Positions 14,624 through 36,747 of a stretch of DNA of 39,804 nt are shown piece after piece. The DNA is taken from the NCBI GenBank assembly GCA_017557185.1, contig JAFZAP010000049.1, forward strand, positions 1 to 39,804, written 5' to 3'. Made by a program: the position numbers and the translations under genes. A model generated the notes under the pieces. The model was not told the DNA's origin. It saw only the letters and a list, made by a program, of their open reading frames with translations, and made no database searches. Within the stretch, counting starts at the first letter, position 1, and every line of letters starts with the position of its first letter. This DNA is from Prevotella sp. (GTDB lineage Bacteria; Bacteroidota; Bacteroidia; Bacteroidales; Bacteroidaceae).

Positions 14624-14630
14624 CAAAAAA

Positions 14631-14660
14631 GTTGAGAGTTGAGCGTTGAGAGTTGAGAGT
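14631..14660 (+). repeat. Short-word array (GTTGAGAG/GTTGAGCG)
   Basis: About four successive imperfect copies of an 8-nt GTTGAGAG word between the divergent xerD and aroQ promoters. Confidence 0.7.
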
Positions 14661-14701
14661 TTTTCTGTTAAAGAAGTTAAAGAAATAAGATTATAGAACC
14701 G

Positions 14702-16310: not shown

Positions 16311-16349
16311 AATTTGTCTGTTTTTGTTTGATGAATGATTATTCTGATA

Positions 16350-16357
16350 CAAAATTA
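16350..16357 (-). promoter_or_regulatory. -7 box of the small barrel gene
   Basis: The minus strand reads TAATTTTG (TAnnTTTG), 39 nt upstream of the ATG at 16310. Confidence 0.7.
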
Positions 16358-16442
16358 CGGTTTTCTTGTGGGTTTATGGTTATTTTTGTTCACAAAAAAT
16401 CTTAAATACCGCGTGAAATTTGATAATTTGGCCAAATGTGAG

Positions 16443-16450
16443 TAACTTTG
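16443..16450 (+). promoter_or_regulatory. -7 box of the CotH-domain gene
   Basis: TAACTTTG, an exact consensus match followed by C, about 72 nt before the chosen start at 16523. It diverges from the barrel-gene promoter. Confidence 0.7.
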
Positions 16451-22730: not shown

Positions 22731-23342
22731 ATGACGAAGAGCATCAAGAATATCGTGTTTGACCTAGGCGGTGTGCTGGTGGGTTTGGACGGACAACGCA
22801 GCATCGAGGCTTTCGACAGGCTGGGCTGCGAAGCCGTGTCGCAATACATCATTGACCACCGTACGGAAGACCTTTTCTACCGTATCGAACTAGGACTGAT
22901 CGACACGCATGGATTTTGCGAGGAAATCCGACAGATGACATCCACCGCTGCCACCGATGAAGAAATGGTGGCGGCATGGAACGCACTGCTCACGGAACTC
23001 ACCGACCACCGCGCACTGCGACTGCTGCAGCTGCGGGAGGCGGGATATAAACTCTTCCTGCTGAGCAACACCAACGACATGCATTGGCAACACTGTGCAC
23101 ATGTACTGTTCCCCAAGGAGGTGCTCGAGGCTTTCGAACGGGTGTTCCTGTCCTACGAGATGCAACTGGCAAAACCTGATAGCCGCATCTTCAAACAGCT
23201 GCTCCAGGAGACAGGCATCGCCGCCGACGAAACGCTCTTCATTGACGACAATCGCGAAAACATCGAGGCTGCTCAGGCATTGGACATCCATACATATCAT
23301 AACCCTACAATTGACAAATGGACGGAAGCGTTGCCACTATAG
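22731..23342 (+). CDS. HAD-superfamily (IA-type) phosphatase
   Basis: A 203-residue cytoplasmic HAD hydrolase. Motif I is FDLGGVLVGLD at about residues 8-18. The nucleophile is the first Asp; the second acidic position is Gly, as in the YihX/epoxide-hydrolase-like subgroup. Motif II is LLSNTND, motif III is the Lys of LAKPDSR, and motif IV is FIDDNREN. A small helical cap lies between motifs I and II. It probably dephosphorylates sugar- or nucleotide-phosphates. ribF starts inside its 3' end (25-nt overlap), so the pair is translationally coupled; a role in FMN/riboflavin phosphate metabolism is possible but not shown. Confidence 0.9.
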   Translation: MTKSIKNIVFDLGGVLVGLDGQRSIEAFDRLGCEAVSQYIIDHRTEDLFYRIELGLIDTHGFCEEIRQMTSTAATDEEMVAAWNALLTELTDHRALRLLQLREAGYKLFLLSNTNDMHWQHCAHVLFPKEVLEAFERVFLSYEMQLAKPDSRIFKQLLQETGIAADETLFIDDNRENIEAAQALDIHTYHNPTIDKWTEALPL

Positions 23343-24259
23343 GATTCTTCGACGGCGTACACTGCGGCCATCAGTTCGTGATTGGCTGTCTGGTGGACGA
23401 GGCTCGCCGACGCGGGCTGCAGTCAGTTGCGGTGACCTTCGACGAGCATCCGCGAAAGGTGATTGCCCCACACAGACCCTCTCCCACAGAGAGGGAGCAA
23501 TACCTGCTGACACCACGCGATGAGGTGAGGAGGCTGATTCTCGAGGCTGGTGCCGACCGCTGCGAAGTGATTCATTTCGACAAGGAGATGGCTCAGCTAT
23601 CGGCACGCGACTTCATGTCGAAAATACTGAAGGAACAGCTATGTGTCAAGGTCCTTCTGATGGGCTATGACAATCGGTTTGGTCACCGCATGCCGCAGAG
23701 CCAGGAAGACTTCAACGACTACGTGAGATATGGCCAGGAGTTGGGCATTGAGGTGAAGGCCTTGCCCGCATGGGACAAGGGGCCTCAGCTATCGTCGTCG
23801 GCCGTGCGACATGCCTTGCGTGACGGCGACGTAGCGTTGGCAGCCCAAATGCTGGGGCGCCACTACTCTATCACAGGACGTGTGGTGCATGGCTACGAGG
23901 AAGGCCATCGGCTGGGATTCCCCACTGCAAACATCGACCCCGCCAGTGTGGAGACACTCATTCCTGCTTCGGGTGTGTATGCTGTAGCGGTGAGTTCCTG
24001 CCCCACTTCCTCTCCCCTCTCTTCACCTTCCTCTCTCCTCTCTCCCGGCATGATGAACATCGGCACACGGCCCACGTATGGCAGTCATGATTTATCGCTG
24101 GAGGTGCACCTCCTTGACTTCGACGGCGACCTATATGATTCACGTCTGGTGGTGACATTCCTGCAGCGCATCCGTGCCGAGCGAACATTCTCGTCGCCCG
24201 AGGAACTCCGACAGCAACTGGAAGCCGACCGCGAGGCCGTGAAGAATTTGAACTTTTGA
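23318..24259 (+). CDS. ribF: Bifunctional riboflavin kinase / FAD synthetase
   Basis: A 313-residue enzyme that phosphorylates riboflavin to FMN and adenylylates FMN to FAD. The N-terminal nucleotidyltransferase domain shows ATIGFFDGVHCGH (residues 6-18), TFDEHPRKV and SSSAVRHALRDGD. The C-terminal riboflavin-kinase domain shows GYEEGHRLGFPTANID and MNIGTRPTYG. Two loops are repeat-derived: PSPTERE at about 54-60, and a Ser/Pro/Leu-rich stretch (SSPLSSPSSLLSP, about 228-245) that replaces the usual short beta-hairpin before MNIGTRP. The stop codon lies within the word repeat TTGAAC. The start overlaps the upstream HAD gene. Confidence 0.95.
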   Translation: MDGSVATIGFFDGVHCGHQFVIGCLVDEARRRGLQSVAVTFDEHPRKVIAPHRPSPTEREQYLLTPRDEVRRLILEAGADRCEVIHFDKEMAQLSARDFMSKILKEQLCVKVLLMGYDNRFGHRMPQSQEDFNDYVRYGQELGIEVKALPAWDKGPQLSSSAVRHALRDGDVALAAQMLGRHYSITGRVVHGYEEGHRLGFPTANIDPASVETLIPASGVYAVAVSSCPTSSPLSSPSSLLSPGMMNIGTRPTYGSHDLSLEVHLLDFDGDLYDSRLVVTFLQRIRAERTFSSPEELRQQLEADREAVKNLNF

Positions 24260-24297
24260 ACGCGACGAAGTCGCATTGAACCGCCCGTAGGGCTCTA
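24248..24297 (+). repeat. TTGAAC word-hairpin array, copy 1
   Basis: TTGAAC at 24248, 24256 and 24276 alternates with the hairpins GCGAC-gaa-GTCGC (24262-24274) and GCCC-gta-GGGC (24283-24293). The ribF stop codon (24257-24259) is part of the array, and the CPBP gene starts 10 nt after it. Confidence 0.9.
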
Positions 24298-24306
24298 ATA
24301 AAAAAT

Positions 24307-25146
24307 ATGAGAAGTAACATCGGTAGAAACATTCTGAATGTCCTAGGCTATCTGGCGGCATTCCTGATCATACAATACGTGATGATGCTCGTCGTGGGCA
24401 CCATATGGCTGGTTGTGAAAGGCACGACGCTGAGCGCAGCCATCAATCAAGTCGCCACAGGCATGCTGGCAAACGACGGCATGGCTTTGGCAATCATCAC
24501 AGCGGCATCGAGCGTGGTGACCATCCTTGTGTTCATGCTGTTGCGCTGGTCGCCATTCTCGCGCACCTATCTGCGCAGCCGCCCGTGGGGTGTGCTATTT
24601 TGGGTGTTCGTATTGACCTTCGGCACGGTCATTCCCTCGGAATGGCTGCTGGAACAGCTGGATGTGGAGATGTCGGAGAGCATGCAACACGTGTTCGAAC
24701 AAATCATGAGCACCCCAGCAGGCTATGTAGCCATCGGACTGTTGGCACCACTGGCAGAGGAGATGGTGTTTCGTGGAGCCATCCTTCGCGTACTGCTGAA
24801 GGTGTTCGACCGCCGCTGGCACTGGCTGCCCATCGTGATATCGGCCGTGTTATTCGGTGCCGTGCATGGAAATATGGCGCAGTTCCTGCATGCCACGCTA
24901 TTAGGACTGCTACTGGGATGGATGTACTATCGTACCGATTCCATCGTACCGGGCGTAGTGCTTCACTGGGTGAACAACTCCATCGCCTATGTCATCTTCA
25001 ACCTGCTGCCGCAGGCCACTGAAGGAAAACTCATCGATCTCTTCGACGGCAACCAGCGAGCAGTATGGATGGCCCTCGGCTTCTCACTCTGCATCCTGCT
25101 GCCTTCGCTGTTCCAGCTCAACGAAAGGATGAAGAGACAGCATTGA
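24307..25146 (+). CDS. CPBP-family intramembrane metalloprotease
   Basis: A 279-residue polytopic inner-membrane protein with about seven hydrophobic helices (first at residues 12-36). Catalytic motifs of the CAAX-protease/bacteriocin-processing (Abi) family are EEMVFRG at 151-157, FGAVHGN with His187, and HWVNNS with His220. These are the metal-ligand and glutamate residues of the glutamic-type intramembrane proteases. The substrate is unknown. It lies third in the HAD-ribF operon, separated from ribF only by a word-hairpin repeat. The start is ATG 24307 (MRSNIGRNIL). Confidence 0.92.
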   Translation: MRSNIGRNILNVLGYLAAFLIIQYVMMLVVGTIWLVVKGTTLSAAINQVATGMLANDGMALAIITAASSVVTILVFMLLRWSPFSRTYLRSRPWGVLFWVFVLTFGTVIPSEWLLEQLDVEMSESMQHVFEQIMSTPAGYVAIGLLAPLAEEMVFRGAILRVLLKVFDRRWHWLPIVISAVLFGAVHGNMAQFLHATLLGLLLGWMYYRTDSIVPGVVLHWVNNSIAYVIFNLLPQATEGKLIDLFDGNQRAVWMALGFSLCILLPSLFQLNERMKRQH

Positions 25147-25161
25147 AAATAAAAACGAAAA

Positions 25162-25986
25162 ATGGAAAGAAAACAGATACTACTGATTAACGACGTAGCA
25201 GGAAACAGCAAGGTGGGCATGGGGGCCATGATTCCCGTCTTGTCGTACCTCGGCTACCCTACGTTCAACCTCCCGACAGCACTCGTGTCGAATACGTTCG
25301 ACTACGGGCGCTTCGCCATTCAGGACACCACCGACTTCATCCGTCAGACGCTGCTCGTCTGGAAGGAACTGGGGTTCGGCTATGATGCCATCTGCACAGG
25401 ATGCATGCTCAGCGAAGAACAGGTACACCTCGTGGCCGACTATTGCCGCGAACAACGACAACACGGAACACTGGTATTCGTAGACCCCGTGATGGGCGAC
25501 GGCGGACACCTCTACAACGGAATGACGATGCGACAGGTGGAACTGATGCGGAAGATGGTGAACGTGGCCGACCTGACGTTCCCCAACTACACCGAGGCCA
25601 CCCTCCTCACAGGCATGGAATACCGACAGGAGGGCATCAGCTGGGACGAGGCGAAGGAACTGCTCGACCGACTGCGCAAGCTCGGTGCACGCTCGGTGCT
25701 GGTGACGAGTTGCCGCTGCGAGGATGCCAACAGCGTGGTGGGCTACAATGCCGACGACGACGATTATTTCCGACTGGAATACGAAGAGATTCCAGGACTG
25801 TTCCACGGAACTGGCGATCTGTTCTCAGCCATCCTCATCGGGAAGCTGTTCAGCGGGAAAACCCTGCGCGAGAGCACTCGCTATACGATGGACATCGTCT
25901 ACCAGCTCATCAGCCTCAACCGCGATATGCCCGACAAGAACCGCGGCATCCTCATTGAGCAGTTCTTGAACATCCTCGACGAGTAA
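25162..25986 (+). CDS. Pyridoxal/pyridoxamine kinase-like ribokinase-family enzyme
   Basis: A 274-residue PfkB/ribokinase-fold kinase, closest to PdxY/PdxK-type pyridoxal kinases. The N-terminus is LLINDVAGNSKVGMGA. The Mg-ATP region is FVDPVMGDGGHLYNG (about residues 110-125), NYTEATLLTG lies near 148, and the anion-hole motif is GLFHGTGDLFSAIL (about 213-226, catalytic Asp in GTGD). It would phosphorylate pyridoxine, pyridoxal or pyridoxamine in vitamin B6 salvage. A hydroxymethylpyrimidine kinase is the main alternative. It is last in the operon, 15 nt after the CPBP gene. Confidence 0.88.
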   Translation: MERKQILLINDVAGNSKVGMGAMIPVLSYLGYPTFNLPTALVSNTFDYGRFAIQDTTDFIRQTLLVWKELGFGYDAICTGCMLSEEQVHLVADYCREQRQHGTLVFVDPVMGDGGHLYNGMTMRQVELMRKMVNVADLTFPNYTEATLLTGMEYRQEGISWDEAKELLDRLRKLGARSVLVTSCRCEDANSVVGYNADDDDYFRLEYEEIPGLFHGTGDLFSAILIGKLFSGKTLRESTRYTMDIVYQLISLNRDMPDKNRGILIEQFLNILDE

Positions 25987-26085
25987 TCGCACGATGCATC
26001 TGCAAAAAACCACCGGTTCTTGCGAAACATCGTTCTTTTTTCAGAATTTTAAGCCTGCAAAGTTGCGGCATTCAGGAATTATGCC

Positions 26086-26093
26086 TAAATTTG
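26086..26093 (+). promoter_or_regulatory. -7 box of the mannoside-degradation genes
   Basis: TAAATTTG, an exact consensus match, with TTG at 26063-26065 about 20 bp upstream. It lies 31 nt before the GH92 start. Confidence 0.65.
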
Positions 26094-26124
26094 TAGTCTG
26101 AAAACCTATTCATGAACGATTACT

Positions 26125-28299
26125 ATGCGATTACGTCTTTATTTTCTGTCATTGGGCGTTTCCCTGCTGACGATGTTCAGCCTGTCGGCAACTGCCGCCG
26201 ATGGTGACTACACCCGTTTTGTGAATCCCCGTATCGGTACGGGCGGCCACGGCCACGTGTTTCTCGGTGCGAATGTGCCGTTCGGCTACATACAGCTCGG
26301 CCCCACACAGCCCACGAGCGGCTGGGACTGGTGTTCCGGCTATCACCACAGCGACTCGGTGCTCATAGGCTTCGGCCACCAGCATCTGAGCGGTACAGGC
26401 ATCGGCGACCTGGGCGATGTGGCTCTGCTGCCTGTCGCCACGCGCGAGCAGCGCCGCGTGCTGTTCACACATGCCCAGGAAACGGTGAGCCCGGGCTATT
26501 ATGCCATCAAGCTGGGCGAGCCCAATGTGTATGTCGAGCTAACGGCAACGAAGCGAGTGGGCATGCACCGCTATACGTTCGGTGCCGACCAGACCGAAGC
26601 CTTCGTGCGCCTCGACCTCAGGCAGGGCATCGGCTGGGATCATGTGAGCGAATGCCAGATGGTGCAGGAGTCGCCGACAACGGTGAGCGGCTACCGTCAC
26701 TCCATAGGCTGGGCAAATCGCCAGAAGGACTTCTTCGTGATGGAGTTCTCGCAGCCCGTCAGCCTGGAGAAGGTCGACGGCGACACCACGGGTGTGCTCA
26801 CGCTGAGCCGTCCTGCCGAGACGCTGCTGGTGAAAGTAGCGATGTCGGCGGTGAGCGTGGCGAATGCGAAGCTGAATCTGCAGGCCGAGCTGCCGGACTG
26901 GGACTTCGGTGCTACGGTAGCGGCAGCACGCAAAGCCTGGAACGATGAACTCTCGAAGATCAGCATCAAGACAAATGATGAGCATGTGCGCCGCATCTTC
27001 TATACGGCGATGTATCACTCGATGATCGCCCCGTCGGTGTTCAACGATGTGAACGGACAGTATCGCGGTGCTGATGGAAAGGTGCACGAGGGCAACTTCA
27101 CGAACTACACCACGCTTTCGCTGTGGGACACCTATCGCTCGGCACATCCGCTGCAGACGATCATCCATCCCGAAAAGCAAGCTGATATGGCGGAAACGTT
27201 CCTGCACATCTTCAAAGAGCAGGGCAAGCTGCCGGTGTGGCACCTGATGGGTAACGAGACCGACTGCATGGTGGGCAACCCGGGCATCCCCGTGCTGGCC
27301 GACCTCGTGTTGAAGGGCTACGTCACCGGTCAGGACCGCGAGCGGGCCTACGAGGCGATGCGCACATCGGCGATGCTCGACGAGCGCGGTATGAAATATC
27401 TGAAGGAGTACGGCTACATTCCCTTCGACAAGGACGAGACCAACGAGACCGTCGCCAAAGGCCTGGAGTATGCACTCGCCGACTGGTGTGTGGCACAGGT
27501 GGCGAAGCTGCTGGGCAAGAAGGCCGACTACAAATACTTCATGCAGCGCAGCAAACTCTACCAGAAGCACTTCGACCCGAAGGACGGCTTCATCAAGGGA
27601 CTGTCGTCCACGGGTGAGCGCCGCACGCCGTTCAACCCCTTCCGCTCGGCCCATCGCATCGACGACTTCACGGAAGGCAATGCGTGGCAGTACACGTGGC
27701 TGGTACCTCACGACGTGCACGGACTGGTGAAGACGTTCGGCTCGGAGGCCCGCTTCATCGAGAAATTCGACTCGCTCTTCATCGTGGAGGGTGATCTGGG
27801 TGAAGAAGCTTCGCCCGACATCAGCGGTCTCATCGGACAATATGCTCACGGCAACGAGCCTTCGCACCATATATTATATATGTATAACTACGTCGGTCAG
27901 CCGTGGAAGGGTGCAAAGTTGTTGCGCAAGACGATGAAGGAATTGTATTTCGACGACTACGACGGCCTGTCGGGCAATGAAGACGTTGGCCAGATGTCGG
28001 CGTGGTACATCCTCTCGGCCGTTGGTCTCTATCAGGTGGAGCCGGCCGGAGGAAAGTACTGCATCGGCTCGCCTGTCGTCGACGAGGCCGCCATCAATGT
28101 CGGCGATGGCCGCACGTTCACCGTGAAGGCCACGAACAACAGTGCCGAGAACATCTACGTACAGAGTGCTATGCTGAATGGCAAGCCGCTGACAAAGTCC
28201 TACATCATGTTCAGCGACATCAAACGTGGCGGCACGCTGGAACTCATGATGGGCCCGACGCCCGGCAACTTCGGCACAAAGGCGAAGGACAGACCGTGA
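26125..28299 (+). CDS. GH92 family alpha-mannosidase
   Basis: A 724-residue exported enzyme (signal peptide ending near ATAADGD). The GH92 opening FVNPRIGTGGHGHVFLGANV is followed by GYIQLGPT and GFGHQHLSGTG. The catalytic (alpha/alpha)6 domain shows YHSMIAPSVFNDVNGQY, LSLWDTYRSAHPL, WHLMGNETDCM and EGNAWQYTWLVPHDVHGL, with GLSGNEDVGQMSAWYILSA near the end. Members are Ca-dependent exo-alpha-mannosidases acting on N-glycans. There is no lipobox, so it is probably periplasmic. It is first of three mannoside genes. The linkage specificity cannot be read from the sequence. Confidence 0.95.
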   Translation: MRLRLYFLSLGVSLLTMFSLSATAADGDYTRFVNPRIGTGGHGHVFLGANVPFGYIQLGPTQPTSGWDWCSGYHHSDSVLIGFGHQHLSGTGIGDLGDVALLPVATREQRRVLFTHAQETVSPGYYAIKLGEPNVYVELTATKRVGMHRYTFGADQTEAFVRLDLRQGIGWDHVSECQMVQESPTTVSGYRHSIGWANRQKDFFVMEFSQPVSLEKVDGDTTGVLTLSRPAETLLVKVAMSAVSVANAKLNLQAELPDWDFGATVAAARKAWNDELSKISIKTNDEHVRRIFYTAMYHSMIAPSVFNDVNGQYRGADGKVHEGNFTNYTTLSLWDTYRSAHPLQTIIHPEKQADMAETFLHIFKEQGKLPVWHLMGNETDCMVGNPGIPVLADLVLKGYVTGQDRERAYEAMRTSAMLDERGMKYLKEYGYIPFDKDETNETVAKGLEYALADWCVAQVAKLLGKKADYKYFMQRSKLYQKHFDPKDGFIKGLSSTGERRTPFNPFRSAHRIDDFTEGNAWQYTWLVPHDVHGLVKTFGSEARFIEKFDSLFIVEGDLGEEASPDISGLIGQYAHGNEPSHHILYMYNYVGQPWKGAKLLRKTMKELYFDDYDGLSGNEDVGQMSAWYILSAVGLYQVEPAGGKYCIGSPVVDEAAINVGDGRTFTVKATNNSAENIYVQSAMLNGKPLTKSYIMFSDIKRGGTLELMMGPTPGNFGTKAKDRP

Positions 28300-28335
28300 T
28301 AGGTAAAAGGTAATAGGTTATAGGTAATAGGTAAG
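28300..28335 (+). repeat. Short-word array (TAGGTAA) filling the GH92-GH125 gap
   Basis: Four TAGGT-type words (TAGGTAA, TAATAGGTTA, TAGGTAATAGG, TAAG) occupy nearly all of the 40-nt spacer between the two genes. Confidence 0.75.
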
Positions 28336-28339
28336 AATT

Positions 28340-29800
28340 ATGAGAAAAATAGTATTGATTAGTTGTTTGGCCATGCTGAGCCTCACCGCTTCAGCACAGG
28401 CGGAGTATGGCAAGGAGTATATCAAGAAGATCGGGCAGCCAAGCACCACATTCGTATCGCGGCGTCCTGCCGAGAAGGACAGGCTGTTCCGCTCCGATGT
28501 AATCGACAAGAAAATCAAGGAAGTGCAGAAGCTGCTGAAGGACAACCCCAAGCTTGCATGGATGTTCGGCAACTGCTTCCCGAACACGCTGGAGACCACC
28601 GTGCACTACTCCGATGCGTCGGGCGACGACGACACATTCGTCTACACAGGCGACATCCACGCCATGTGGCTACGCGACTCGGGTGCTCAGGTATGGCCTT
28701 ATGTGCAGTTTGCCAATCAGGACCCGAAGCTGAAGAAGATGGTGCGCGGCACGATTCTCCGCCAGTTCCATTGCATCTGCCTCGATCCCTACGCCAACGC
28801 CTTCAACCTGGAGCCGAATCCAGGTGGCGAGTGGATGAAGGACCTCACAGAGATGAAGCCGTTCCTGCACGAGCGCAAGTACGAGATCGACTCGCTATGC
28901 TACCCGCTGCGACTGGCCTATCAGTATTGGCTCACCACCGGCGACACATCGGTGTTCGGTGAACTCTGGCTGCAGACCATCCAGAACATCCTGCGCACCT
29001 TCCGCGAGCAGCAGCGCAAGGACGGCAACCTCGGCCCCTATCGCTTCCAGCGTCGCACCGAGCGTGCCTCCGACACCACACAGAACGACGGCTGGGGCAA
29101 CCCCGTGAAGCCCGTAGGTCTCATCGCATCGGTGTTCCGTCCGAGCGACGATGCCACGACATTCCTGTTCCTCATCCCCTCAAACTTCATGGCGGTGTCG
29201 AGTTTGCGCAAGGCTGCCGAAATCCTGACGAAGGTGAACCAGCGTGCCGACCTCGCTGCGGAGTGTACCGCGCTGGCCGACGAGGTGCAGACGGCGCTGA
29301 ACAAATATGCCGTTCACATGCACCCGACCTATGGCCCTATCTATGCTTTTGAGGTCGACGGCTTCGGCAACCAGCTGCTGATGGACGATGCCAACGTACC
29401 CTCGCTGCTGGCGATGGGCTATCTCGGCGACGTTCCCATGAACGACCCCATCTATCAGAACACGCGTAGCTTCGTGTGGAGCGATAGCAACCCCTACTTC
29501 TTCCGCGGTCCTGCGGGTGAAGGAATCGGCGGTCCGCATATCGGCTACGGCTATGCGTGGCCCATGTCGATCATGATGAAGGCCTTCACTGCTCAGAACG
29601 ACAACGAGATCCGCGCCTGCATGCGCCAGCTGCTCACCACCGATGCCCAGACGGGATTCATCCACGAGTCGTTCAACGTCGAGAACTCCGACAAATACAC
29701 GCGTGCCTGGTTTGCGTGGCAGAACACCCTCTTCGGTGAACTCGTCCTGAAACTCATCAACGACGGAAAAACCGATCTGCTCGTACATTGTTTGGATTAA
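28340..29800 (+). CDS. GH125 family exo-alpha-1,6-mannosidase
   Basis: A 486-residue exported enzyme (signal 1-19, SLTASAQ). Family GH125 (formerly DUF1237) features are DTFVYTGDIHAMWLRDSGAQ, LDPYANAFN, ERKYEIDSLCYPLRLAY and DDATTFLFLIPSNFMA, with LLMDDANVPSLLAMGYLG and AGEGIGGPHIGYGYAWPM downstream. It is an inverting hydrolase that removes alpha-1,6-linked mannose from N-glycan cores. It lies 40 nt after the GH92 gene and is co-transcribed with it. Together they would reduce a high-mannose glycan to Man-beta-1,4-GlcNAc. Confidence 0.95.
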   Translation: MRKIVLISCLAMLSLTASAQAEYGKEYIKKIGQPSTTFVSRRPAEKDRLFRSDVIDKKIKEVQKLLKDNPKLAWMFGNCFPNTLETTVHYSDASGDDDTFVYTGDIHAMWLRDSGAQVWPYVQFANQDPKLKKMVRGTILRQFHCICLDPYANAFNLEPNPGGEWMKDLTEMKPFLHERKYEIDSLCYPLRLAYQYWLTTGDTSVFGELWLQTIQNILRTFREQQRKDGNLGPYRFQRRTERASDTTQNDGWGNPVKPVGLIASVFRPSDDATTFLFLIPSNFMAVSSLRKAAEILTKVNQRADLAAECTALADEVQTALNKYAVHMHPTYGPIYAFEVDGFGNQLLMDDANVPSLLAMGYLGDVPMNDPIYQNTRSFVWSDSNPYFFRGPAGEGIGGPHIGYGYAWPMSIMMKAFTAQNDNEIRACMRQLLTTDAQTGFIHESFNVENSDKYTRAWFAWQNTLFGELVLKLINDGKTDLLVHCLD

Positions 29801-29801
29801 G

Positions 29802-29844
29802 GGAGCCCCACCCGCAGTAGGGGCAGCCCCCCGTGTCTGCCCGA
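29802..29844. repeat. GC-rich intergenic repeat after GH125
   Basis: Direct and inverted runs of GGGGC/GCCCC (AGCCCCACCC, GGGGCAGCCCC) begin two bases after the stop codon. It is related in style to the in-frame GC elements but has its own sequence. Confidence 0.5.
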
Positions 29845-29856
29845 AATTCAGCAACA

Positions 29857-29925
29857 TTGAACCATTTGAACGCGCGAAGCGCATTGAACCTTTGAACACT
29901 TGAACTGCCCGAAGGGCTCTTGAAC
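29857..29925 (+). repeat. TTGAAC word-hairpin array, copy 2
   Basis: TTGAAC occurs at 29857, 29866, 29884, 29892, 29900 and 29920. Hairpins between the words are GCGC-gaa-GCGC (29872-29882) and GCCC-gaa-GGGC (29907-29917). Confidence 0.9.
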
Positions 29926-30033
29926 CGTAGGTCATCGACTGAAGCAGTGCTGTCACGCGAAGCGTGGTGCACGAATCAGCGAAGGAGATCGCTCGGCTTT
30001 GCCGCTTTCGTAGCGGAGCAGAGAAAGAACTTT

Positions 30034-30059
30034 TTGAACGCGCCGCAGGCGCATTGAAC
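30034..30059 (+). repeat. TTGAAC word-hairpin array, copy 3
   Basis: TTGAAC (30034), hairpin GCGCC-gca-GGCGC (30040-30052) and TTGAAC (30054-30059), ending one base before the GH130 start codon. Where a ribosome-binding site would be expected, only this hairpin module is present. Confidence 0.85.
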
Positions 30060-30060
30060 A

Positions 30061-31095
30061 ATGGAAAAACTAACCATCCAAGGGCAACCATTGCCCAACA
30101 TGCCTTGGGAAGAGCGGCCGGCAGGCTGCCATACACCAATGTGGCGCTACAGTAAGAATCCAGTTATTCGGCGCGACCTGCTTTTGACGTCGAACAGTAT
30201 TTTCAACAGTGCCGTCGTACCGTTCAGCAACGGCTATGCCGGCGTATTCCGCTGCGACGACACCAACCGCCGCATGACGCTCCACGTGGGTTTCAGCGAC
30301 GACGGTCTCGACTGGCATATCGAAGAGGAAACGCTGAAGTTCGAATGCGACAACAAGGAAGTCGGCCAGTGGGTGTACGGCTACGACCCGCGTGTCTGCC
30401 GCATCGACGACCGCTGGTGGGTGACCTGGTGCAACGGCTATCACGGACCGACCATCGGCGTAGCGTGGACCAAGGACTTCAAGACATTCCATCAGGTGGA
30501 GAATGCCTTCCTGCCCTACAACCGCAACGGCGTGCTCTTCCCGCGAAAGATTAACTCCCTCCCTACTGGGGAGGGTCGGGGTGGGGCTCGTTATGCTATG
30601 CTCAGCCGACCCAGCGACACAGGTCACACGGCCTTCGGCGACATCTTCTACAGCGAGTCGCCCGACATGGAGTTCTGGGGACACCATCGGCATGTCATGT
30701 CGCCGGCACCCTTCGAGGTGAGCGCGTGGCAAAGCATGAAGATTGGTGCCGGGCCGACACCCATCGAGACCAGCGAGGGATGGCTCCTCTTCCATCATGG
30801 CGTGTTGCTCTCCTGCAATGGCTACGTCTATGCCTTCGGATCAGCGTTGCTCGACCTCGACGAACCTTGGCGTGTCATCGCCCGTTCCGGTCCCTACCTG
30901 ATTTCGCCGCGTGAGCCTTACGAGTGCATGGGCGATGTGCCGAACGTGTGCTTCCCCTGTGCCGCACTCCACGACCCTGCGACCGGCCGCATCGCCATCT
31001 ACTACGGTTGTGCCGACACGGTGACCGGTCTGGTCTTCGGCTATATCCCCGAAATCATCGAGTTTACCAAGCGCAACAATATCAGCGCACTTTGA
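30061..31095 (+). CDS. GH130 mannoside phosphorylase (Man-beta-1,4-GlcNAc type)
   Basis: A 344-residue protein without signal peptide, so cytoplasmic or periplasmic through another route. Family GH130 motifs are [48 protein letters not shown] and [12 protein letters not shown], with [19 protein letters not shown] and a closing [18 protein letters not shown]130 enzymes use phosphate to release mannose-1-phosphate from beta-1,4-mannosides, and the gene context points to the N-glycan core. Residues about 165-175 ([11 protein letters not shown]) are encoded by a dispersed GC element inserted between PRKIN and RYAMLSRP. Its effect on activity is unknown. Confidence 0.93.
30555..30588 (+). repeat. 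In-frame GC-rich element within the GH130 gene
   Basis: Thirty-three of 34 bases match the reverse complement of 11737-11770 in the FAD oxidoreductase gene. Both are read to give [11 protein letters not shown]. Confidence 0.9.
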
Positions 31096-31133
31096 CAGAA
31101 AGACGTTGTTTTGACAAAGAGACAAAGAGAGGT

Positions 31134-31203
31134 TCTCCTTCTTTCATTCGGAGAAGTGTAAAGCGACGATGTCGCGTGTAACTGTCCTTCGGACGTGTAA
31201 GGT
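31134..31203 (+). repeat. 70-nt inverted repeat R1, left copy
   Basis: Identical over 70 nt to the reverse complement of 33223-33292. Internal grammar: the word GTGTAA three times, separated by the hairpins GCGAC-gat-GTCGC and GTCC-ttc-GGAC. Confidence 0.95.
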
Positions 31204-31213
31204 ATAAAGAGAA

Positions 31214-31248
31214 TTTTTATGTTTTTTGCCAGGCGTAGAGGTGATTTC
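31214..31248 (+). repeat. Repeat R2, copy 1
   Basis: About 30 of 35 positions shared with 33295-33328 in direct orientation (TTTTTATGTTTTTT, then AGAGGTGATTTC). Confidence 0.75.
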
Positions 31249-31252
31249 TGGT

Positions 31253-31321
31253 TTCATTAAGACAACATAGACAACTTTGGACAACTTTATGTTGTCCTTT
31301 GTTGTTCGTGTTGTTTTTAAA
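31253..31321 (+). repeat. Dispersed repeat R3, copy 2
   Basis: Inverted relative to 22546-22614 with only two mismatches in 69 nt. It lies 40 nt before the stop codon of the TPR regulator gene. Confidence 0.9.
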
Positions 31322-31360
31322 TTCTCTAATTCTTGACGAAAAAAAGTTTTAGCGGGCAAA

Positions 31361-33016
31361 CTATTCTTTGTTCGTCATTTTTTTCATTCTTGAGAGCATA
31401 GTCCTCCATGCACCCTCGCTCATACCCATGATGTTCCGGATCTCTTCATCGCTCTTCCCCATGTGGCTTAGTATCAGACAGCAGCGCTGCTGTGGCGACA
31501 GCGCAGCGTTTCCCTCGTTCAGTTCAATCGAGAACGGAATGTCGCGCATGCAGTAATAGCACTCGAAGTCGAGAAAATCCTGCTTGCGCCACAGCTGCGT
31601 AGTACCGCCAGCCAGCAAGGCATCGTGCAACACACGCCCATGCGACAGCTGTTGTGCATAGTCCATACGCATCTTCTCGATGGTCGAGTCCTGCTTCTCC
31701 TGCAGTTGTTCCACGCGTTGCTGCATATTGTACAACTGGTCCTTCGCCTTGCGGTGATCCCTGCGCAGCTCCGTCATCTTTCCCTCTACATCCTCCGCGT
31801 CCAGGCGCGCAGCCATGATGTCTTTTGCATTCTCCGCCATCTGCTGTTGCAACCTTCTCATTCTGACGTCGTCCTGACGCTTCCTGTAGAAGTAATACGC
31901 TGCAAACGCCAGCAGCAACACCAACAGCGACAAACTCCAGTACCACGACTTCCGAAGGTTGGCATTCATCTCCTTCTTCACCTGCCGATGATCTATCGAC
32001 TGCTGCTGGCGGGCCACATCCTCTGTCTTACGGGTTCTCTCCAGCGAGTCCTTCAGCATGGCGATATCGCTGGCCATCGCGTTTGCCGAACGATAGTCGC
32101 CCGTCTGCATCTTCAGCTCCCTCAACCCCTGCAGCGTACTGATGCGCGTGTCCAGTCTCTCCGCGATGGCCAGTGCCTGCTGGTAGAATTCCTCTGCTTT
32201 CACATAGTCGCCACGATCGGCATACAGACTTGCCAGCGAGCGATAGGCAAAGCCGTGCGGCTCTATTTCCACAGAGCGCTTCAGCAGTTCCTCCGCCTTC
32301 TGCAGACCGCCCATATTCTTATAGTACACACCCAGATTGGCCAGCACATGCGCCTGTTCCTCCTTCCGCACATAAGCCGTAAGCGGCACACACTGCTCAA
32401 AATAGTACAGGGCGCTGTCCTGCTTTCCCACATGGTGATAGGCCACCGCCAGTGCCTCGTAGTCCTCCAGCAGCAACTTCGGATTGTCCAGCCTGCTACA
32501 ACAGTCGACGGCTCTCAGCGCATATTCCAACGCCTTGTCGTACTCACCTGCCGAGAAATTGATGTCCTCCAAGCTGTTGCACACCTTGCTCTGCAATAGC
32601 AGGTCGCCACTCGCATCAGCCAGAAACTCCGCCTGCTTCAAGCTCTCCACCGCCTCGCGAGTTCTGTTCTGCTCCTTCTGGATCACACCTTTATAATAAT
32701 ATGTACGCGCGAGCAGCGCCTGCGGCCCGTTCTTTTCGTAATAGGCCAGGCTGAAGTCCAGCAGCGAGTCCGAGGCAACAGAAATATACGCCTTCCACAT
32801 CGTCTGCACACGCAGCAGAGCATAGTATGCCCGCACCTCGTCATTCATCGCTGTTGTGTCGATTCGATTGATTTCGTGCAGAGCCGAGTCCACCAGCTCG
32901 TGTGTCAACAACGTGTCGACAGTCGCCAACTGCCGCATAGCCCTCTCGTTGCCGTTCCGACAGCCCGACAGAGCCAGCACTGCTATCATCATAAATAAAA
33001 ATCGTCTCATCTTCAC
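31361..33016 (-). CDS. TPR-containing membrane regulator with C-terminal HTH
   Basis: A 551-residue protein. The N-terminal signal has a lipobox-like LALSGC19. TPR repeats span about 100-330 (AEELLKRSVEIEPHGFAYRSL and YVKAEEFYQQALAIAERL are clear units). A transmembrane helix is at 357-377. A basic stretch and a coiled coil (about 380-455) follow, and residues 503-545 (LSPQQRCCLILSHMGKSDEE ... GMSEGAWRTMLSRM) resemble a LuxR-like helix-turn-helix. The topology suggests a periplasmic TPR sensor coupled to a cytoplasmic DNA-binding domain, as in many Bacteroidota regulators. The gene is flanked by perfect 70-nt inverted repeats. Targets are unknown; the neighbouring mannoside and lipoprotein genes are candidates. 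Confidence 0.85.
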   Translation of the reverse strand: MKMRRFLFMMIAVLALSGCRNGNERAMRQLATVDTLLTHELVDSALHEINRIDTTAMNDEVRAYYALLRVQTMWKAYISVASDSLLDFSLAYYEKNGPQALLARTYYYKGVIQKEQNRTREAVESLKQAEFLADASGDLLLQSKVCNSLEDINFSAGEYDKALEYALRAVDCCSRLDNPKLLLEDYEALAVAYHHVGKQDSALYYFEQCVPLTAYVRKEEQAHVLANLGVYYKNMGGLQKAEELLKRSVEIEPHGFAYRSLASLYADRGDYVKAEEFYQQALAIAERLDTRISTLQGLRELKMQTGDYRSANAMASDIAMLKDSLERTRKTEDVARQQQSIDHRQVKKEMNANLRKSWYWSLSLLVLLLAFAAYYFYRKRQDDVRMRRLQQQMAENAKDIMAARLDAEDVEGKMTELRRDHRKAKDQLYNMQQRVEQLQEKQDSTIEKMRMDYAQQLSHGRVLHDALLAGGTTQLWRKQDFLDFECYYCMRDIPFSIELNEGNAALSPQQRCCLILSHMGKSDEEIRNIMGMSEGAWRTMLSRMKKMTNKE

Positions 33017-33222
33017 CTTTATATTTTGTAATTGATTCTTTTTGACACCTTTGAATTGAAAAAAACATCAAAAACACCGCTTGTATCGGCTGCGGTCTAT
33101 CGACCTGACGTGTTGTCCTTCCTGTCTGTGCCTGAAAGCAAGCTTTCCGCACATCCCACAAGTACATCACGGTTTTTGCCAAAACTCAGCCGCCACAGCG
33201 GCAAAAACAAAAAAAACTTTTC

Positions 33223-33292
33223 ACCTTACACGTCCGAAGGACAGTTACACGCGACATCGTCGCTTTACACTTCTCCGAATGAAAGAAGGAGA
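33223..33292 (-). repeat. 70-nt inverted repeat R1, right copy
   Basis: Perfect inverted partner of 31134-31203. Together they flank the complete TPR regulator gene, 2019 nt apart. Confidence 0.95.
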
Positions 33293-33294
33293 CT

Positions 33295-33328
33295 TTTTTA
33301 TGTTTTTTCCAGCCGAAGAGGTGATTTC
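33295..33328 (+). repeat. Repeat R2, copy 2
   Basis: Same orientation as copy 1 although the neighbouring R1 is inverted, so the two composite blocks are not a simple inverted duplication. Confidence 0.75.
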
Positions 33329-33450
33329 GCAGAAATGATGGATGTGAGGGTGAGGATCGGGGAGCTTGCTCACCAGAGCTGACTCACTCACAGACATCAA
33401 GGCACGCAGTGCCACCTCTTCGACTGGTGTTTTTTCTGTTTTTTTCTCTC

Positions 33451-33513
33451 TTCACTTTGACCTTCGGTCTTCCTCTGTCGCGACTCGGCATAGCTGGAAT
33501 AAACTCCGCTCTG
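33451..33513 (-). repeat. Dispersed repeat R4, copy 2
   Basis: Inverted relative to 20878-20940. Holds the mini-hairpin GACC-ttc-GGTC. Confidence 0.8.
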
Positions 33514-33769
33514 CCCTCGCTACTCCATCGGTTCACTTCGCGCTTGCGCGGAAAATATTTCTTTCCGCTGCAAAATTACGGAAAAAAAAGCACTCCACAA
33601 AGGGAAAAACACCCCTATTTTGTTACAATTTTTTGGCGATTTATCGTTTGTTAACACGGTTCAAACGCCCTGCCACGCTGGATTTCTTGCGAAAACACCC
33701 CCTCAAAAAACTGTAACAATGTTAATGCGATTTAACACTAAAAACCTTGCAGCATATTCTTTTTTCTCC

Positions 33770-33851: not shown

Positions 33852-34652
33852 ATGAAGAAACTAGTTTATCTCCTCTGCTGCCTATTCCTGCTCTCCGCAG
33901 GTTTCGCAGCCTGCTCCAACGAAACAGATGATCCGCCTGAACAACCCAGCTCGCATCAGAACGAAGAGCCTACGGATAGCATCGGAGGTTTCGAAGAAGA
34001 TTCTGCTCTGTTGGAACCAGAGTTTTCTGAAGAGATGGGAAATAACCCAAGGTATGCAAATAACTATCAAACCACAACGGAAGAAAACGGCATGGTGATA
34101 ACACGTGACGCTTTTGGATATATCAAATGGATTTCCTTCTCAAGCGCCATCAGGCCTACGACAGCAACAGAATTGTTTTCCCAATATATGGGGCTTTCAC
34201 CAGATGACTACCAACTTTATTATAAGGAGGATAATTCCTGGATGTCCAGTCCGCTGACCGTTGAACGCTATCATCAGCTATATCGGGGTATCGCTGTCAA
34301 TCAGGGTACATACATCGTGAGGTTCCAAAACGGGAGTGTAACTGACGCCAACGGCAACTACATCAAAGTAGAAAGTCTCGATATCACACCATCTTTCGAT
34401 GTGCAAACAGCAAAGGAAATCTATGCAAAGTATTTGAATGTACTCGTTGACAGAGTGGGTACAAGACAAAATGGCGATGCTCTGATGATTGCAGAGTTCC
34501 CTGTAAAGAAAGGCTCCTCAGAATGGGCACCCCGATTGGTCTATTGCTTGCATGACCGTGAAATGAACGATGAGGGATCTTGCTTCATCGATGCTCACAC
34601 AGGCCGCATTCTCCAAACGTGGTGCAACTACACAGATGAATTAATGGAATAG
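33852..34652 (+). CDS. Lipoprotein with a protease-propeptide-like (FTP/PepSY) domain
   Basis: A 266-residue lipoprotein, Cys21 in SAGFAAC. The acidic residues just after the cysteine (SNETDD) fit a Bacteroidota surface-export signal. Residues about 95-260 look like a fungalysin/thermolysin propeptide followed by PepSY: YHQLYRGIAVNQGTYIVRFQ, then PSFDVQTAKEIYAKYL and LVYCLHDREMNDEGSCFIDA with TGRIL. No catalytic HEXXH domain follows; the protein simply ends. It could be a stand-alone protease inhibitor or chaperone, or the relic of a secreted protease. It is first of three genes whose first 40 residues are nearly the same. Confidence 0.75.
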   Translation: MKKLVYLLCCLFLLSAGFAACSNETDDPPEQPSSHQNEEPTDSIGGFEEDSALLEPEFSEEMGNNPRYANNYQTTTEENGMVITRDAFGYIKWISFSSAIRPTTATELFSQYMGLSPDDYQLYYKEDNSWMSSPLTVERYHQLYRGIAVNQGTYIVRFQNGSVTDANGNYIKVESLDITPSFDVQTAKEIYAKYLNVLVDRVGTRQNGDALMIAEFPVKKGSSEWAPRLVYCLHDREMNDEGSCFIDAHTGRILQTWCNYTDELME

Positions 34653-34677: not shown

Positions 34678-36129
34678 ATGAAGAAACTGGTATATATCCT
34701 CAGCTGTCTGTTCCTGCTCTCTGCAGGTTTCGCAGCCTGCTCTTGCGAATCGGAAGATCCGCCAGAACAGCCCAACTCGCATCAGAACGAAACGCCTACT
34801 GTGGATTCTTTGGGAGCAGAGCCCTCGCAAAAGCCCTCGCAAGTTAATAAATCATTATGTGGAAAATGGTATTTGTTCAGACAGGACGGATATGACTACT
34901 CTCTGGAAAGGATTGAACTTGGTGAGGATGGTACTTTTGTTATAAAAACAAAAGGTTATATCCATTCAAGTAGTCCTATAACAGAAAAATGCACATATCG
35001 AATCGCGGAAGATTTCAAGTATGATGAAGAGATGCACATGGACAAAGCTACAGTTTATGTATATCATAGGAAAATCAGTTATAACAGCCATAATGAAAAT
35101 GATTCAACACGTTGTGACTTCTATCTAAAAGGCGACACTCTGATGTTCAGATACTACGAACCCTCTGACAGCTACTTTTTCAATTTCCTAGTTAATGCAG
35201 GTTCAAAACCTGAGAAATGGTATGTTAGGGACACAAAAGTAGACGACACCTATACTACTATCTCGCCTATTAAGGTGAGCAGTGAAGTAGAAGCCTTTTT
35301 CAATGAGGCTCTGCCCACCTTCTGTGATTCAGCTGTCATAGGCGACTGGGTCAAATACATTGGCGACTTCCAGTTCCTTGATCCTGTGGAACTCATGGGT
35401 TACAGCATCATCAGCGACCAAGAAACATTCGAGGCAAAGTATGTCGGCAACAAGACATTACCTCAAATTGATTTCAATAAGTACTCCTTCGTTTTTGGAC
35501 GTTATTTTTTAGGCATAGATGAAACTATCAATTATATTGACATTCAACCTGTCAATAACGACTATTATATTGTGCTGCACACTACTGATCCGTCATTTAA
35601 CTATTATGATGTATCATACTCAACAGACGAGCCTCATTGGTATTATAGCGGTATAGAAGGAAGACTCAAATCGTTCTGGGGTATCTTCCCTAAAGACCTA
35701 CCGGATATTTGGTGTGTATTCTCTGAAAAAAAATGTGACGGGAGAAAAGAACCTATTGAGGCAAGCAGCACTATAAAGGCTTTTTTTGAAGCGAACCTAT
35801 ACAACTCTTTCTTTAATGATGTAGAAAAAGGAAGGGACACTTGTCTTGTAGTAAATAGCCAAAAGGAACTTGCCGCCATCTATTCTGGTTCTGATGCCCT
35901 ACCCGACATAAACTTCAACACGCAAACACTTGTCATCGGAAAAGCTCTCAGGCCAACGGGCAAATACGTTGTGAAATACCAAGTAATACTAAAAGTGGAT
36001 GGAAAGACCTTTCTTTTTATCAAGATAGGTGATTCATCTGGCAGCACAACACTCTGGGACATGTACTACTGGGGACTCTATCCCAAATTCGAAGAACATA
36101 TAGATTGTGTAATGATAAGTCAAGAATAA
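34678..36129 (+). CDS. Lipoprotein with lipocalin-like region and two copies of a novel domain
   Basis: A 483-residue lipoprotein with the shared leader and Cys21. Residues about 58-180 (LCGKWYLFRQDGYDYSLERI ... CDFYLKGDTLMFRYYEP) resemble a lipocalin-like beta-barrel. Then come two diverged copies of a roughly 125-residue unit: one at about 200-345 (SSEVEAFFNEALP, SDQETFEAKYVGNKTLPQID, FWGIFPKDLP) and one at about 360-483 (SSTIKAFFEANLYN, NSQKELAAIYSGSDALPDIN, YYWGLYPKFE). The same unit occurs once in the next gene. The function is unknown. The gap to the previous gene is 25 nt and to the next gene is 6 nt, so they form an operon. Confidence 0.8.
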   Translation: MKKLVYILSCLFLLSAGFAACSCESEDPPEQPNSHQNETPTVDSLGAEPSQKPSQVNKSLCGKWYLFRQDGYDYSLERIELGEDGTFVIKTKGYIHSSSPITEKCTYRIAEDFKYDEEMHMDKATVYVYHRKISYNSHNENDSTRCDFYLKGDTLMFRYYEPSDSYFFNFLVNAGSKPEKWYVRDTKVDDTYTTISPIKVSSEVEAFFNEALPTFCDSAVIGDWVKYIGDFQFLDPVELMGYSIISDQETFEAKYVGNKTLPQIDFNKYSFVFGRYFLGIDETINYIDIQPVNNDYYIVLHTTDPSFNYYDVSYSTDEPHWYYSGIEGRLKSFWGIFPKDLPDIWCVFSEKKCDGRKEPIEASSTIKAFFEANLYNSFFNDVEKGRDTCLVVNSQKELAAIYSGSDALPDINFNTQTLVIGKALRPTGKYVVKYQVILKVDGKTFLFIKIGDSSGSTTLWDMYYWGLYPKFEEHIDCVMISQE

Positions 36130-36135
36130 GTTAAT

Positions 36136-36747
36136 ATGAAGAAACTGGTTTATATCCTCAGCTGCCTGTTCCTGCTCTCCGCAGGTTTCGCAGCCTGCTC
36201 CAGCGAAACAGATGATCCGCCAGAACAACCGAGTTCGCATCAGAACGAAACACCTGTGGACAGCATCGCAGTTAACAACGACACTACGGAGGTTGATTCA
36301 ACGGAAGCGTATACCATCATTTCCGCTGTCTCTGCCAGCGAGGAGGTGAAAGCGTTCTTCGATGAGATGTTGCCTTATTTGCCTATTTTGCCTCTGGAAC
36401 TTTCTCCATTCTCATTCTCGCCAAGTAAGGAAAGCGAATTCTTTGTCATCAACAGCGAGCAAGAACTGCGCGACATATATAAAGGCGAAAAACCTCTCCC
36501 TCAACTGGATTTTGAACAAAACACTCTGATTATAGGTCAGAAGCTTATGCCTGGTGCATCTTTCCACTTGGAATCCGTTGAATTACGAGTTTATGACGAT
36601 AGTAGTGTTTTGGCCATCTACACCCGTGAACCGCCATATCGATATGCAACATTGTATAATCTCTACTTCTGGGGACTATTCCCCAAGATAGAAAACAACA
36701 TTTCTAATCTCATACAAATCAACCGGAAGGAGGAACTTGTTGAATAA
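36136..36747 (+). CDS. Lipoprotein with a single copy of the same novel domain
   Basis: A 203-residue lipoprotein with the shared leader (MKKLVYILSCLFLLSAGFAA then Cys21). Residues about 70-200 match the repeated unit of the preceding gene: ASEEVKAFFDEMLP, INSEQELRDIYKGEKPLPQL, NTLIIGQKLMPG and YFWGLFPKIENNI. The conserved skeleton is AFF, a short-chain E-L-xx-IY-xG region, LPQLDF, and WGLFPK near the C-terminus. It begins 6 nt after the preceding gene. The domain is not one I recognise. Confidence 0.8.
   Translation: MKKLVYILSCLFLLSAGFAACSSETDDPPEQPSSHQNETPVDSIAVNNDTTEVDSTEAYTIISAVSASEEVKAFFDEMLPYLPILPLELSPFSFSPSKESEFFVINSEQELRDIYKGEKPLPQLDFEQNTLIIGQKLMPGASFHLESVELRVYDDSSVLAIYTREPPYRYATLYNLYFWGLFPKIENNISNLIQINRKEELVE

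Follow-up and report, generated by a model that had tools for sequence, protein, structure and literature searches.

Arrays of a six-nucleotide word and GNA-loop mini-hairpins in Prevotella: interspersed repeats that may act as folded single-stranded DNA

Word-and-hairpin arrays at the locus

The window analysed here is a 39,804-nt stretch of Prevotella sp. (JAFZAP010000049.1), contig C37 of a draft genome of 3.35 Mb in 116 contigs, and it carries several short arrays in which a six-nucleotide word, TTGAAC or TTACAC, alternates with small hairpins that mostly close on a three-nucleotide GNA loop (Table 1). The TTGAAC arrays between 29857 and 30059 are placed between the open reading frames (ORFs) 28340-29800 and 30061-31095, and the two TTACAC arrays bracket ORF 31361-33016. 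The gene names used here (ribF-like, membrane-protease-like and GH130-like) come from translations read by eye, without family searches; the nearest named relatives found for the GH130-like protein belong to rumen Prevotellaceae metagenome-assembled genomes (MAGs; RUG178, 90% amino-acid identity).

A direct re-reading of the sequence located the array letters of the original prediction at all of their positions, with some details corrected. The TTGAAC arrays at 29857-29925 and 30034-30059 match their earlier description. At 24256-24293 the layout of words and hairpins stands, but single spacer bases had been left out (TTGAAC-GCGACgaaGTCGC-a-TTGAAC-c-GCCCgtaGGGC), and one further word lies just outside that span, at 24248. 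Both arrays reported for the word GTGTAA are present, but they are a single repeat in inverted orientation (76 nt, 97%) and therefore not independent examples; contig C69 carries a third copy (L207:14713-14776), which matches at 97% over 64 nt. In addition, when read on the strand that shows GNA loops in the TTGAAC arrays, the word of this family is TTACAC, not GTGTAA.

Table 1. Positions of the arrays and adjoining features in the window (REP, repetitive extragenic palindrome; RAYT, REP-associated tyrosine transposase)
Feature	Position	Strand	Words	Hairpins or parts	Context
TTGAAC array	24248..24293	+	24248, 24256, 24276	GCGAC-gaa-GTCGC 24262-24274; GCCC-gta-GGGC 24283-24293 (+)	Overlaps 3' end of ribF-like ORF 23318-24259; ends 13 nt upstream of the ATG of membrane-protease-like ORF 24307-25146
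GTAG-type REP GTAGGGGCAG..GTCTGCCC	29817..29843	+			Separate family; near copy of the REP flanking the RAYT-like gene; adjoins the 29857 array
TTGAAC array	29857..29925	+	29857, 29866, 29884, 29892, 29900, 29920	GCGC-gaa-GCGC 29872-29882; GCCC-gaa-GGGC 29907-29917 (+)	
Long insert between two words	29926..30033	+		Element E1 29926-29989, then E2 ~29990-30030	
TTGAAC array	30034..30059	+	30034, 30054	GCGCC-gca-GGCGC 30040-30052, flanked by the words	Ends 1 nt upstream of the ATG of GH130-like ORF 30061-31095
TTACAC array	31134..31203	-	GTGTAA on + at 31156, 31176, 31195	GCGAC-gat-GTCGC 31163-31175; GTCC-ttc-GGAC 31184-31194	
Larger hairpin	~31134-31154				3' end of the 31134 array on the TTACAC strand
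TTACAC array, inverted second copy	33223..33292	+	33226, 33245, 33265		

Excess of the layout over chance

Across the whole genome, the pattern TTGAACN10-18TTGAAC yields 222 matches (102+120), against 9 (4+5) for a control consisting of the same pattern reversed, and GTGTAAN8-20GTGTAA yields 34 against 7. The anatomy of the arrays was studied in 80 stretches totalling 1.19 Mb, which were chosen in part at array positions, so that densities per megabase drawn from them do not apply genome-wide. In this sample, 106 TTGAAC pairs and 27 TTACAC pairs lie 10-18 nt apart, compared with 0-2 and 0-4 in five dinucleotide shuffles. A count of frames, that is, any 6-mer on both sides of any perfect hairpin with a stem of at least 4 bp and a loop of 3 nt, was made in 631 kb, with 96 of 262 frames set aside as masked N; TTGAAC/GTTCAA gives 35/32 frames and TTACAC/GTGTAA 8/6 (the same sites read on either strand), against at most 2 for any word in five shuffles. 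Other words with four to six frames are TTGAAC or TTACAC sites in shifted register, and the next word, AGTTAA, has three; in the 631-kb sample the grammar thus comprises two words, not an open set. Reversed controls and shuffles alike uphold the prediction that the word-hairpin-word layout exceeds chance: the layout is real and occurs far above chance expectation.

Anatomy of the unit

Among 180 neighbouring TTGAAC pairs within 26 nt, 82 enclose a hairpin with a stem of at least 4 bp, 82 are separated by short gaps (only 1-3 nt in 78 of them, often with C as the first letter), and 16 have other gaps, several of which are GCC-gaa-GGC or decayed hairpins. Read on the word strand, the loops of the 82 hairpins are GAA (28), GCA (17), GTA (13), TTC (1) and others (23), giving 58 GNA loops and a single TNC, and a C-G pair closes 79 of them. 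The bias recurs in relatives, where 84 TTGAAC hairpins include 50 GNA, three TNC and one GNRA loop, and the inter-word segments in the own genome (105 distinct) include 61 C-GNA-G triloops and no GNRA tetraloop. Of 19 TTACAC hairpins, 12 have GNA loops on the TTACAC strand; three with ATC are three copies of one repeat. A loop of the form GNA or GNNA, when carried on two or more G-C pairs, gives an extraordinarily stable, nuclease-resistant DNA mini-hairpin, with a melting temperature of 78 °C for GCGAAGC (PMC4686876), and a GAA loop is 6 °C more stable than GTA (PMC6479982). Judged by sequence, the majority of the hairpins here would belong to this class (C-G-closed GNA, at least two G-C pairs), and their loop ranking, GAA > GCA > GTA, is compatible with the reported difference in stability.

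The stems vary while remaining paired. The 82 TTGAAC hairpins have 29 different 5' arms, some unlike in length alone. Pairing at a fixed offset was compared with a control in which arms were shuffled among segments: 14-nt segments (28 distinct) form 3.43 of 4 pairs against 2.02 after shuffling, 12-nt segments (14) 3.64 against 2.67, 13-nt segments (8) 2.75 against 1.51, and 15-nt segments (27) 2.37 against 1.32. In 67 segments selected for a stem, G-C, C-G and A-T/T-A pairs all occur at three variable positions, and 72 of 89 distinct segments have a perfect stem of at least 4 bp, with eight lacking a stem. Neighbouring copies in stretch L197 differ by a stem change on both sides (TGACC-gca-GGTC, TGCCC-gca-GGGC). 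A fixed form with varying word and stem letters, as originally proposed, is supported.

TTGAAC and TTACAC also occur within one array in the same orientation, as at L210 13075-13180 and L065 16719-16801, which sets the register of the words as TT-GA-AC and TT-AC-AC. Of the 55 arrays with hairpins in the own genome, 30 carry one directly behind their last word and 7 directly ahead of their first, against a baseline of 251 hairpins in 4000 random intergenic 24-mers; the corresponding numbers in relatives are 27 and 7 of 46, and these counts include some flanking hairpins with loops other than GNA. By genome, hairpins after and before number 6/1 of 8 arrays in G615, 3/2 of 6 in G498, 1/0 of 3 in G307 and 0/0 of 1 in G430; no TTGAAC hairpin is held by the stretches of G494. 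The unit is therefore a word followed by a hairpin, and this array polarity, word first and hairpin last, is new relative to the original prediction. Higher-order tandem copies (L052 10905-11160) and repeated spacers show that duplication happens.

Genomic context

The 48 TTGAAC arrays with hairpins in the own genome comprise 37 between two called genes, seven inside crude ORF calls and four at stretch ends. Among the 37, genes are co-directional at 27, with the array on the same strand in 16 and opposed in 11; ten lie in convergent gaps and none in a divergent gap, which make up 84 of 405 gaps (binomial p 0.0003). Relatives give a similar picture for 47 arrays (co-directional 13 same and 12 opposed, nine convergent, one divergent, nine inside ORFs, three at ends), the one divergent case standing among 35 intergenic arrays, and 246 gaps being 179 co-directional, 32 convergent and 35 divergent. 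The orientation of TTGAAC arrays thus ignores the direction of transcription, and the arrays avoid divergent gaps. Rfam gives no match at E<=1 in window positions 23900-33700.

Distribution and turnover among genomes

Among 398 genomes of the genus, the own genome included, a strict hairpin pattern is found 127 times in the own genome (control 0), 136 times in G615 (control 1), and 51, 40, 24, 20, 18, 17 and 12 times in G344, G494, G498, G475, G378, G430 and G307, respectively. These nine are the array-rich genomes, all drafts with completeness of 78-96%; every other genome has at most five matches, and many of the single matches listed outside the nine are one recurring site, TTGAACGACTCGAAGG. 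At the family level some TTGAAC pair exists in 296 of 301 genomes, many at control level, and among 19 relatives with excess words the strict pattern gives no match in 13, one in four, three in G295 and 13 in G117, a member of another genus whose matches carry GGC-gna-GCC stems. Stem repertoires differ, with GGGC/GCCC in G344, GCGGC in G378 and GCGC in G475 and G307, and several stems of G615 and G498 are common with the own genome. Small numbers of other words occupy the slot, including TTACCC in G615, TATCGTAG in G475 and, in G494, TTACAC and once TCTCAAC. The relatives thus support, in few cases, a slot that other words can fill.

Around the GH130-like gene, 80 loci of relatives (1.43 Mb) contain four TTGAAC frames, all in L109; among the 25 commonest words there, the 18 loci listed show, for the most part, words that occur once or tandems lacking a hairpin, CTATAG being one. 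The window's 24248 array is absent in L109, and the L109 array at 2742-2796 is absent in the window: syntenic places gain and lose arrays from one species to another. At ~82% likeness, even the nearest relatives compared were too distant for a recent duplication event to be caught, and the iterative copying or template mechanism of the original prediction was not observed, although the tandem copies attest to duplication. In IMG/VR the strict pattern occurs in seven stretches. A perfect unit (TTGAAC-c-CTAAC-gta-GTTAG-aa-TTGAAC) stands at L286:1587-1614 and at the same site in L287, L288 and L290, singly and within a 484-aa phage reading frame of one phage group (one contig 419 kb), and in the remaining three stretches the stem never exceeds 1 bp. 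None of the seven holds an array, which leaves a viral origin unsupported, and the lone coding unit in the phage group may be due to chance.

Candidate enzymes

A RAYT-like gene exists in the own genome (L189:1306-1833; contig C7, ~68.9 kb). It exceeds the Pfam Y1_Tnp cut-off, and it scores 63.8 bits (E 1.5e-17) with NCBIfam REP_Tyr_transpos, under the cut-off of 80. On both sides the gene is flanked by GTAGGGGCAGAC..GTCTGCCC REPs of the GTAG type in inverted orientation, and no TTGAAC lies within its 3.2-kb locus. An incomplete second Y1 gene of the own genome has CCCC-gaa-GGGG and GCCC-gaa-GGGC hairpins in its flanks, and C-GNA-G hairpins are present in 7 of 15 Y1-gene loci examined; they stand at either end of the L190 Y1 piece and in the array ahead of the Y1 gene of L252. 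That gene, L252:1402-2251 (G615), follows an array of ~69-nt repeats, each with a GTCCTC-gaa-GAGGAC hairpin; the YIMNQKEHH motif of its protein resembles that of subclass 1.2, a group tabulated without terminal structures in PMC6006769. The TTGAAC arrays seen nearest to a Y1 gene are those of G498: two clusters at a distance of 1.7-3.0 kb, with a word pair lacking a hairpin at 0.14 kb.

Neither enzyme suggested by the original prediction could be linked to the arrays. The RAYT-like gene sits between GTAG REPs, and at E<=0.01 a Y1_Tnp match occurs in 6 of the 9 array-rich genomes and in 17 of the 36 array-poor ones, or in 5 of 9 and 17 of 36 above the family cut-off. The array-poor set is listed throughout at 99% completeness; 31 of its genomes gave no match by the strict pattern, and G033, G075, G136, G164 and G291 were classed from TTGAAC word-pair counts alone. 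A reverse transcriptase was considered as the array maker and set aside, its gene not tracking array-rich genomes (RVT_1 in 5 of 9 against 15 of 27, the latter being the first 27 of the 36).

Comparison with known repeat systems

REPs and bacterial interspersed mosaic elements (BIMEs) are short palindromes of extragenic DNA that carry a short conserved word on the 5' side of the hairpin foot and occur singly or in arrays at high copy number (PMC6006769, PMC3733652, PMC2817692). The present arrays likewise have, on a defined strand, hairpins with a short word to their 5' side, are extragenic and reach high copy number. However, the word at the foot of REPs is GT[AG]G or CGTC instead of TTGAAC or TTACAC, REP stems are longer and family-typical, unlike the 4-5 bp stems with diverse arms seen here, and no cognate Y1 (RAYT) gene flanked by a TTGAAC repeat was found in these draft genomes. 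In layout alone, with palindromic units alternating with short motifs, the arrays answer to the description of BIMEs, without homology to enterobacterial BIMEs being implied; they differ in that their units are head-to-tail direct repeats and that no linked transposase was found. The layout thus works like that of REPs and BIMEs, but classical REP membership fails on word, palindrome and cognate RAYT, in agreement with the earlier view that the arrays are no simple REP or tandem repeat.

In REP doublets forming hairpins (REPINs), the hairpin-forming capacity of the spacer is kept by compensatory changes, and singlets are taken as remnants (PMC3116915). Conserved flanks around a spacer that stays hairpin-forming are a shared property, but REPIN flanks are inverted and longer, whereas here they are 6-nt direct repeats. 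TnpA-Y1 genes of subclass 2.6 in Bacteroidetes, the same phylum, are accompanied by atypical secondary structures with copies elsewhere in the genome (PMC6006769); TTGAAC-hairpin arrays, in contrast, were not found directly at Y1 genes. The d(GCGAAGC)/d(GCGNAGC) mini-hairpins share the GNA loop, C-G closing pair and GC stem, with GAA being the commonest loop here (PMC4686876, PMC6479982), but they are a chemical motif and no genomic repeat family. BrickBuilt of Porphyromonas gingivalis also forms intergenic Bacteroidales repeat arrays with predicted long stem loops; as described there, however, it consists of 23-nt repeats within a miniature inverted-repeat transposable element with terminal inverted repeats, and no word-and-mini-hairpin layout (PMC4596501). 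CRISPR repeats are identical, ~24-48 nt long and separated by non-repetitive spacers, unlike the 6-nt words and palindromic spacers of these arrays (no cas-gene search was made). A substrate of IS200/IS605-type HUH transposases would be cleaved at the word by a Y1 enzyme via a single-stranded intermediate; across the genomes, no association of Y1 genes with the arrays was found. Among the open-licence PMC titles and abstract openings listed, no description of word-and-mini-hairpin arrays was recognised.

Mechanism and alternatives

The arrays may be REP/BIME-like interspersed DNA repeats that act as folded single-stranded DNA and that maintain their word and hairpin shape but not their stem sequence. 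Each unit would consist of the word, TTGAAC or TTACAC, and on its 3' side a hairpin of 4-5 bp that usually has a C-(GNA)-G triloop. Since C-GNA-G makes a DNA turn of extreme compactness and stability, each hairpin would close independently of the others whenever replication, repair or transcription leaves the word strand single. The word and the hairpin shape on that strand would then be recognised, regardless of stem letters, by a cellular activity, the likeliest candidate being an HUH-type, hairpin-recognising single-stranded DNA nuclease or transposase that cuts or joins at the word. Such a shape-reading activity would account for the kept word, the closing C-G pair, the GNA loop and the paired drift of the stems, as well as for head-to-tail arrays with the word first and an orientation blind to transcription. 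To the observed layout, loop strand bias, paired variation, polarity, genomic context and patchy spread in the genus, this reading adds action as single-stranded DNA on the word strand, which the DNA-type GNA loops and the orientation independent of transcription suggest. A more specific form of it is possible but doubtful: the arrays would be a class of bacterial repeat encoded by its shape, the word and C-GNA-G hairpin being read, with any stem letters, by a single-stranded DNA machine, possibly other than Y1, with head-to-tail arrays built by insertion or duplication at the word and concerted word change along an array producing the dialects TTGAAC, TTACAC, TTACCC and TATCGTAG.

Several observations weigh against a shape-reading activity. 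Solitary units of word and GNA hairpin are almost absent (two in 1.19 Mb), although a unit that moves independently would be expected to leave them behind, and no empty-site insertion of a TTGAAC unit was seen among relatives that are at best ~82% alike. None of the Y1 loci examined, of ~3.3 kb each and all in drafts, contains a TTGAAC-hairpin array, Y1_Tnp is not significantly commoner in array-rich than in array-poor genomes (Fisher p 0.46 for 6/9 against 17/36), and no Y1 gene was found in G344, G475 and G307 (MAGs 90-92% complete), an absence that is soft because array-rich genomes are drafts whose lower completeness depresses their counts. Polarity is uneven between genomes (after/before 13/0 of 16 in G378, 0/1 of 6 in G475, 4/3 of 6 in G344), and stems with a G.T wobble (3) or another mismatch (6) occur among the 89 distinct segments. 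The few TTACAC arrays (n=12) tend to one side, with one co-directional case on the same strand and five opposed; the rest comprise three convergent, one inside an ORF, one at an end and one divergent, the last being that at window 33225, where the next called gene is 2.9 kb off. When whole arrays are folded as DNA, their advantage over shuffles is modest (z -1.25 to -1.46). A hint of replication-strand preference is weak: the word strand has G>C for 39 of the 60 arrays, with p 0.027 before correction in one of six such tests, and the skew has no tie to the majority gene strand. Because solitary units are near-absent, no gene is linked and no insertions were observed, the mechanism is held slightly below an even chance.

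An unlikely alternative invokes no dedicated machinery: slippage would expand tandems of TTGAAC plus 1-3 nt, template switching between arms would create or perfect hairpins, and homologous recombination would spread the arrays. The 78 of 180 neighbouring pairs that are 1-3 nt apart, the hairpin-free TTGAAC tandems in relatives (13 of the 19 excess-word genomes without a strict match) and the higher-order copies in L052 fit slippage, and the both-sided stem change in L197, together with the scarcity of one-mismatch intermediates (9/89), fits template switching, which is able to create and keep hairpins (PMC8794818). However, template switching also inverts the loop (PMC8604942), yet GNA outnumbers TNC by 58:1 in the own genome and 50:3 in relatives, and the C-GNA-G rule, the identity of the word across species and the polarity are left unexplained. 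Somewhat less likely is a host function, in which arrays would be selected at gene ends as multi-site binding or structural elements, such as a gyrase or nucleoid-protein site or a 3'-end element, comparable to enterobacterial BIMEs. The scarcity of arrays in divergent gaps and their frequency in convergent and co-directional ones, the nearly constant presence of at least two words together, and the retention of word and shape while stems drift would agree with it, but arrays are not kept at orthologous places (24248 compared with L109) and array-rich genomes number only 9 of 398.

An RNA element, with hairpins in 5' or 3' untranslated regions bound by an RNA-binding protein, is improbable: several arrays do end near a start codon (window 24248 and 30034; L109 2742-2796), but orientation is independent of transcription (16/11 in the own genome, 13/12 in relatives), the triloops are of the DNA-type GNA class, GNRA occurs in 0 of 105 own segments and 1 of 84 relatives' hairpins, and Rfam gives no match at E<=1 in window 23900-33700. 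That the TTGAAC units are the REPs of a resident RAYT is highly improbable, since the RAYT-like gene on C7, although present, sits between GTAGGGGCAG..GTCTGCCC REPs in a locus devoid of TTGAAC, and array-rich genomes in which no Y1 gene was detected exist.

Other repeats in the window

The insert that separates the 29857 and 30034 arrays consists of two elements. E1, of 64 nt (CGAAGGTCATCGACTGAAGCAGTG...GGAGAT), starts right after TTGAAC at all six places found (besides the window, L049:1706-1769, L052:5793-5856 and 16343-16446, and two in L215:2739-2889); a further word follows it, as if E1 were a large spacer of TTGAAC arrays, and once more it is joined to E2. E2, of ~41 nt (CGCTCGGCTTTGCCGCTTTCGTAGCGAAGCGGAGAAAGAAC), is dispersed over many sample stretches and is also nested in another repeat, the family at window 31249-31321, with a clean junction GGAC|..|AACTTTATG, as at L205:15843-15888; at some other sites, short duplications seem to flank it.

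A 34-nt repeat, CTCCCTCCC..GGGGAGGGTCGGGGTGGGG, is present at 30555-30588 and 11737-11770 as a 97% inverted match, the 30555 copy lying inside the open GH130-like reading frame. Three successive genes have near-identical starts encoding a lipoprotein-like signal and linker (33852-33987, 34678-34813 and 36136-36271), which are 78-89% alike over 136 nt before the gene bodies differ. Tandem heptamers lie close to gene ends, with ~5 copies of ATAGGTA at 28299-28334 and ~4.6 copies of AGTTGAG at 14630-14661.

Implications

To our knowledge, the GNA DNA mini-hairpin has been met with mostly in chemistry and in the design of aptamers, and at a small number of natural sites; if the arrays do act as folded single-stranded DNA, they would represent its large-scale natural use. 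The family is conserved by layout rather than by sequence, and similarity searches tend to miss such repeats for that reason. There is a real, though lesser, chance that the recognition principle has not been described before. If a protein reads the hairpin shape, structure-specific recognition of chromosomal DNA hairpins would become directly testable in these Prevotella, and if none does, the arrays would offer a natural system in which to measure how template switching keeps hairpins paired.

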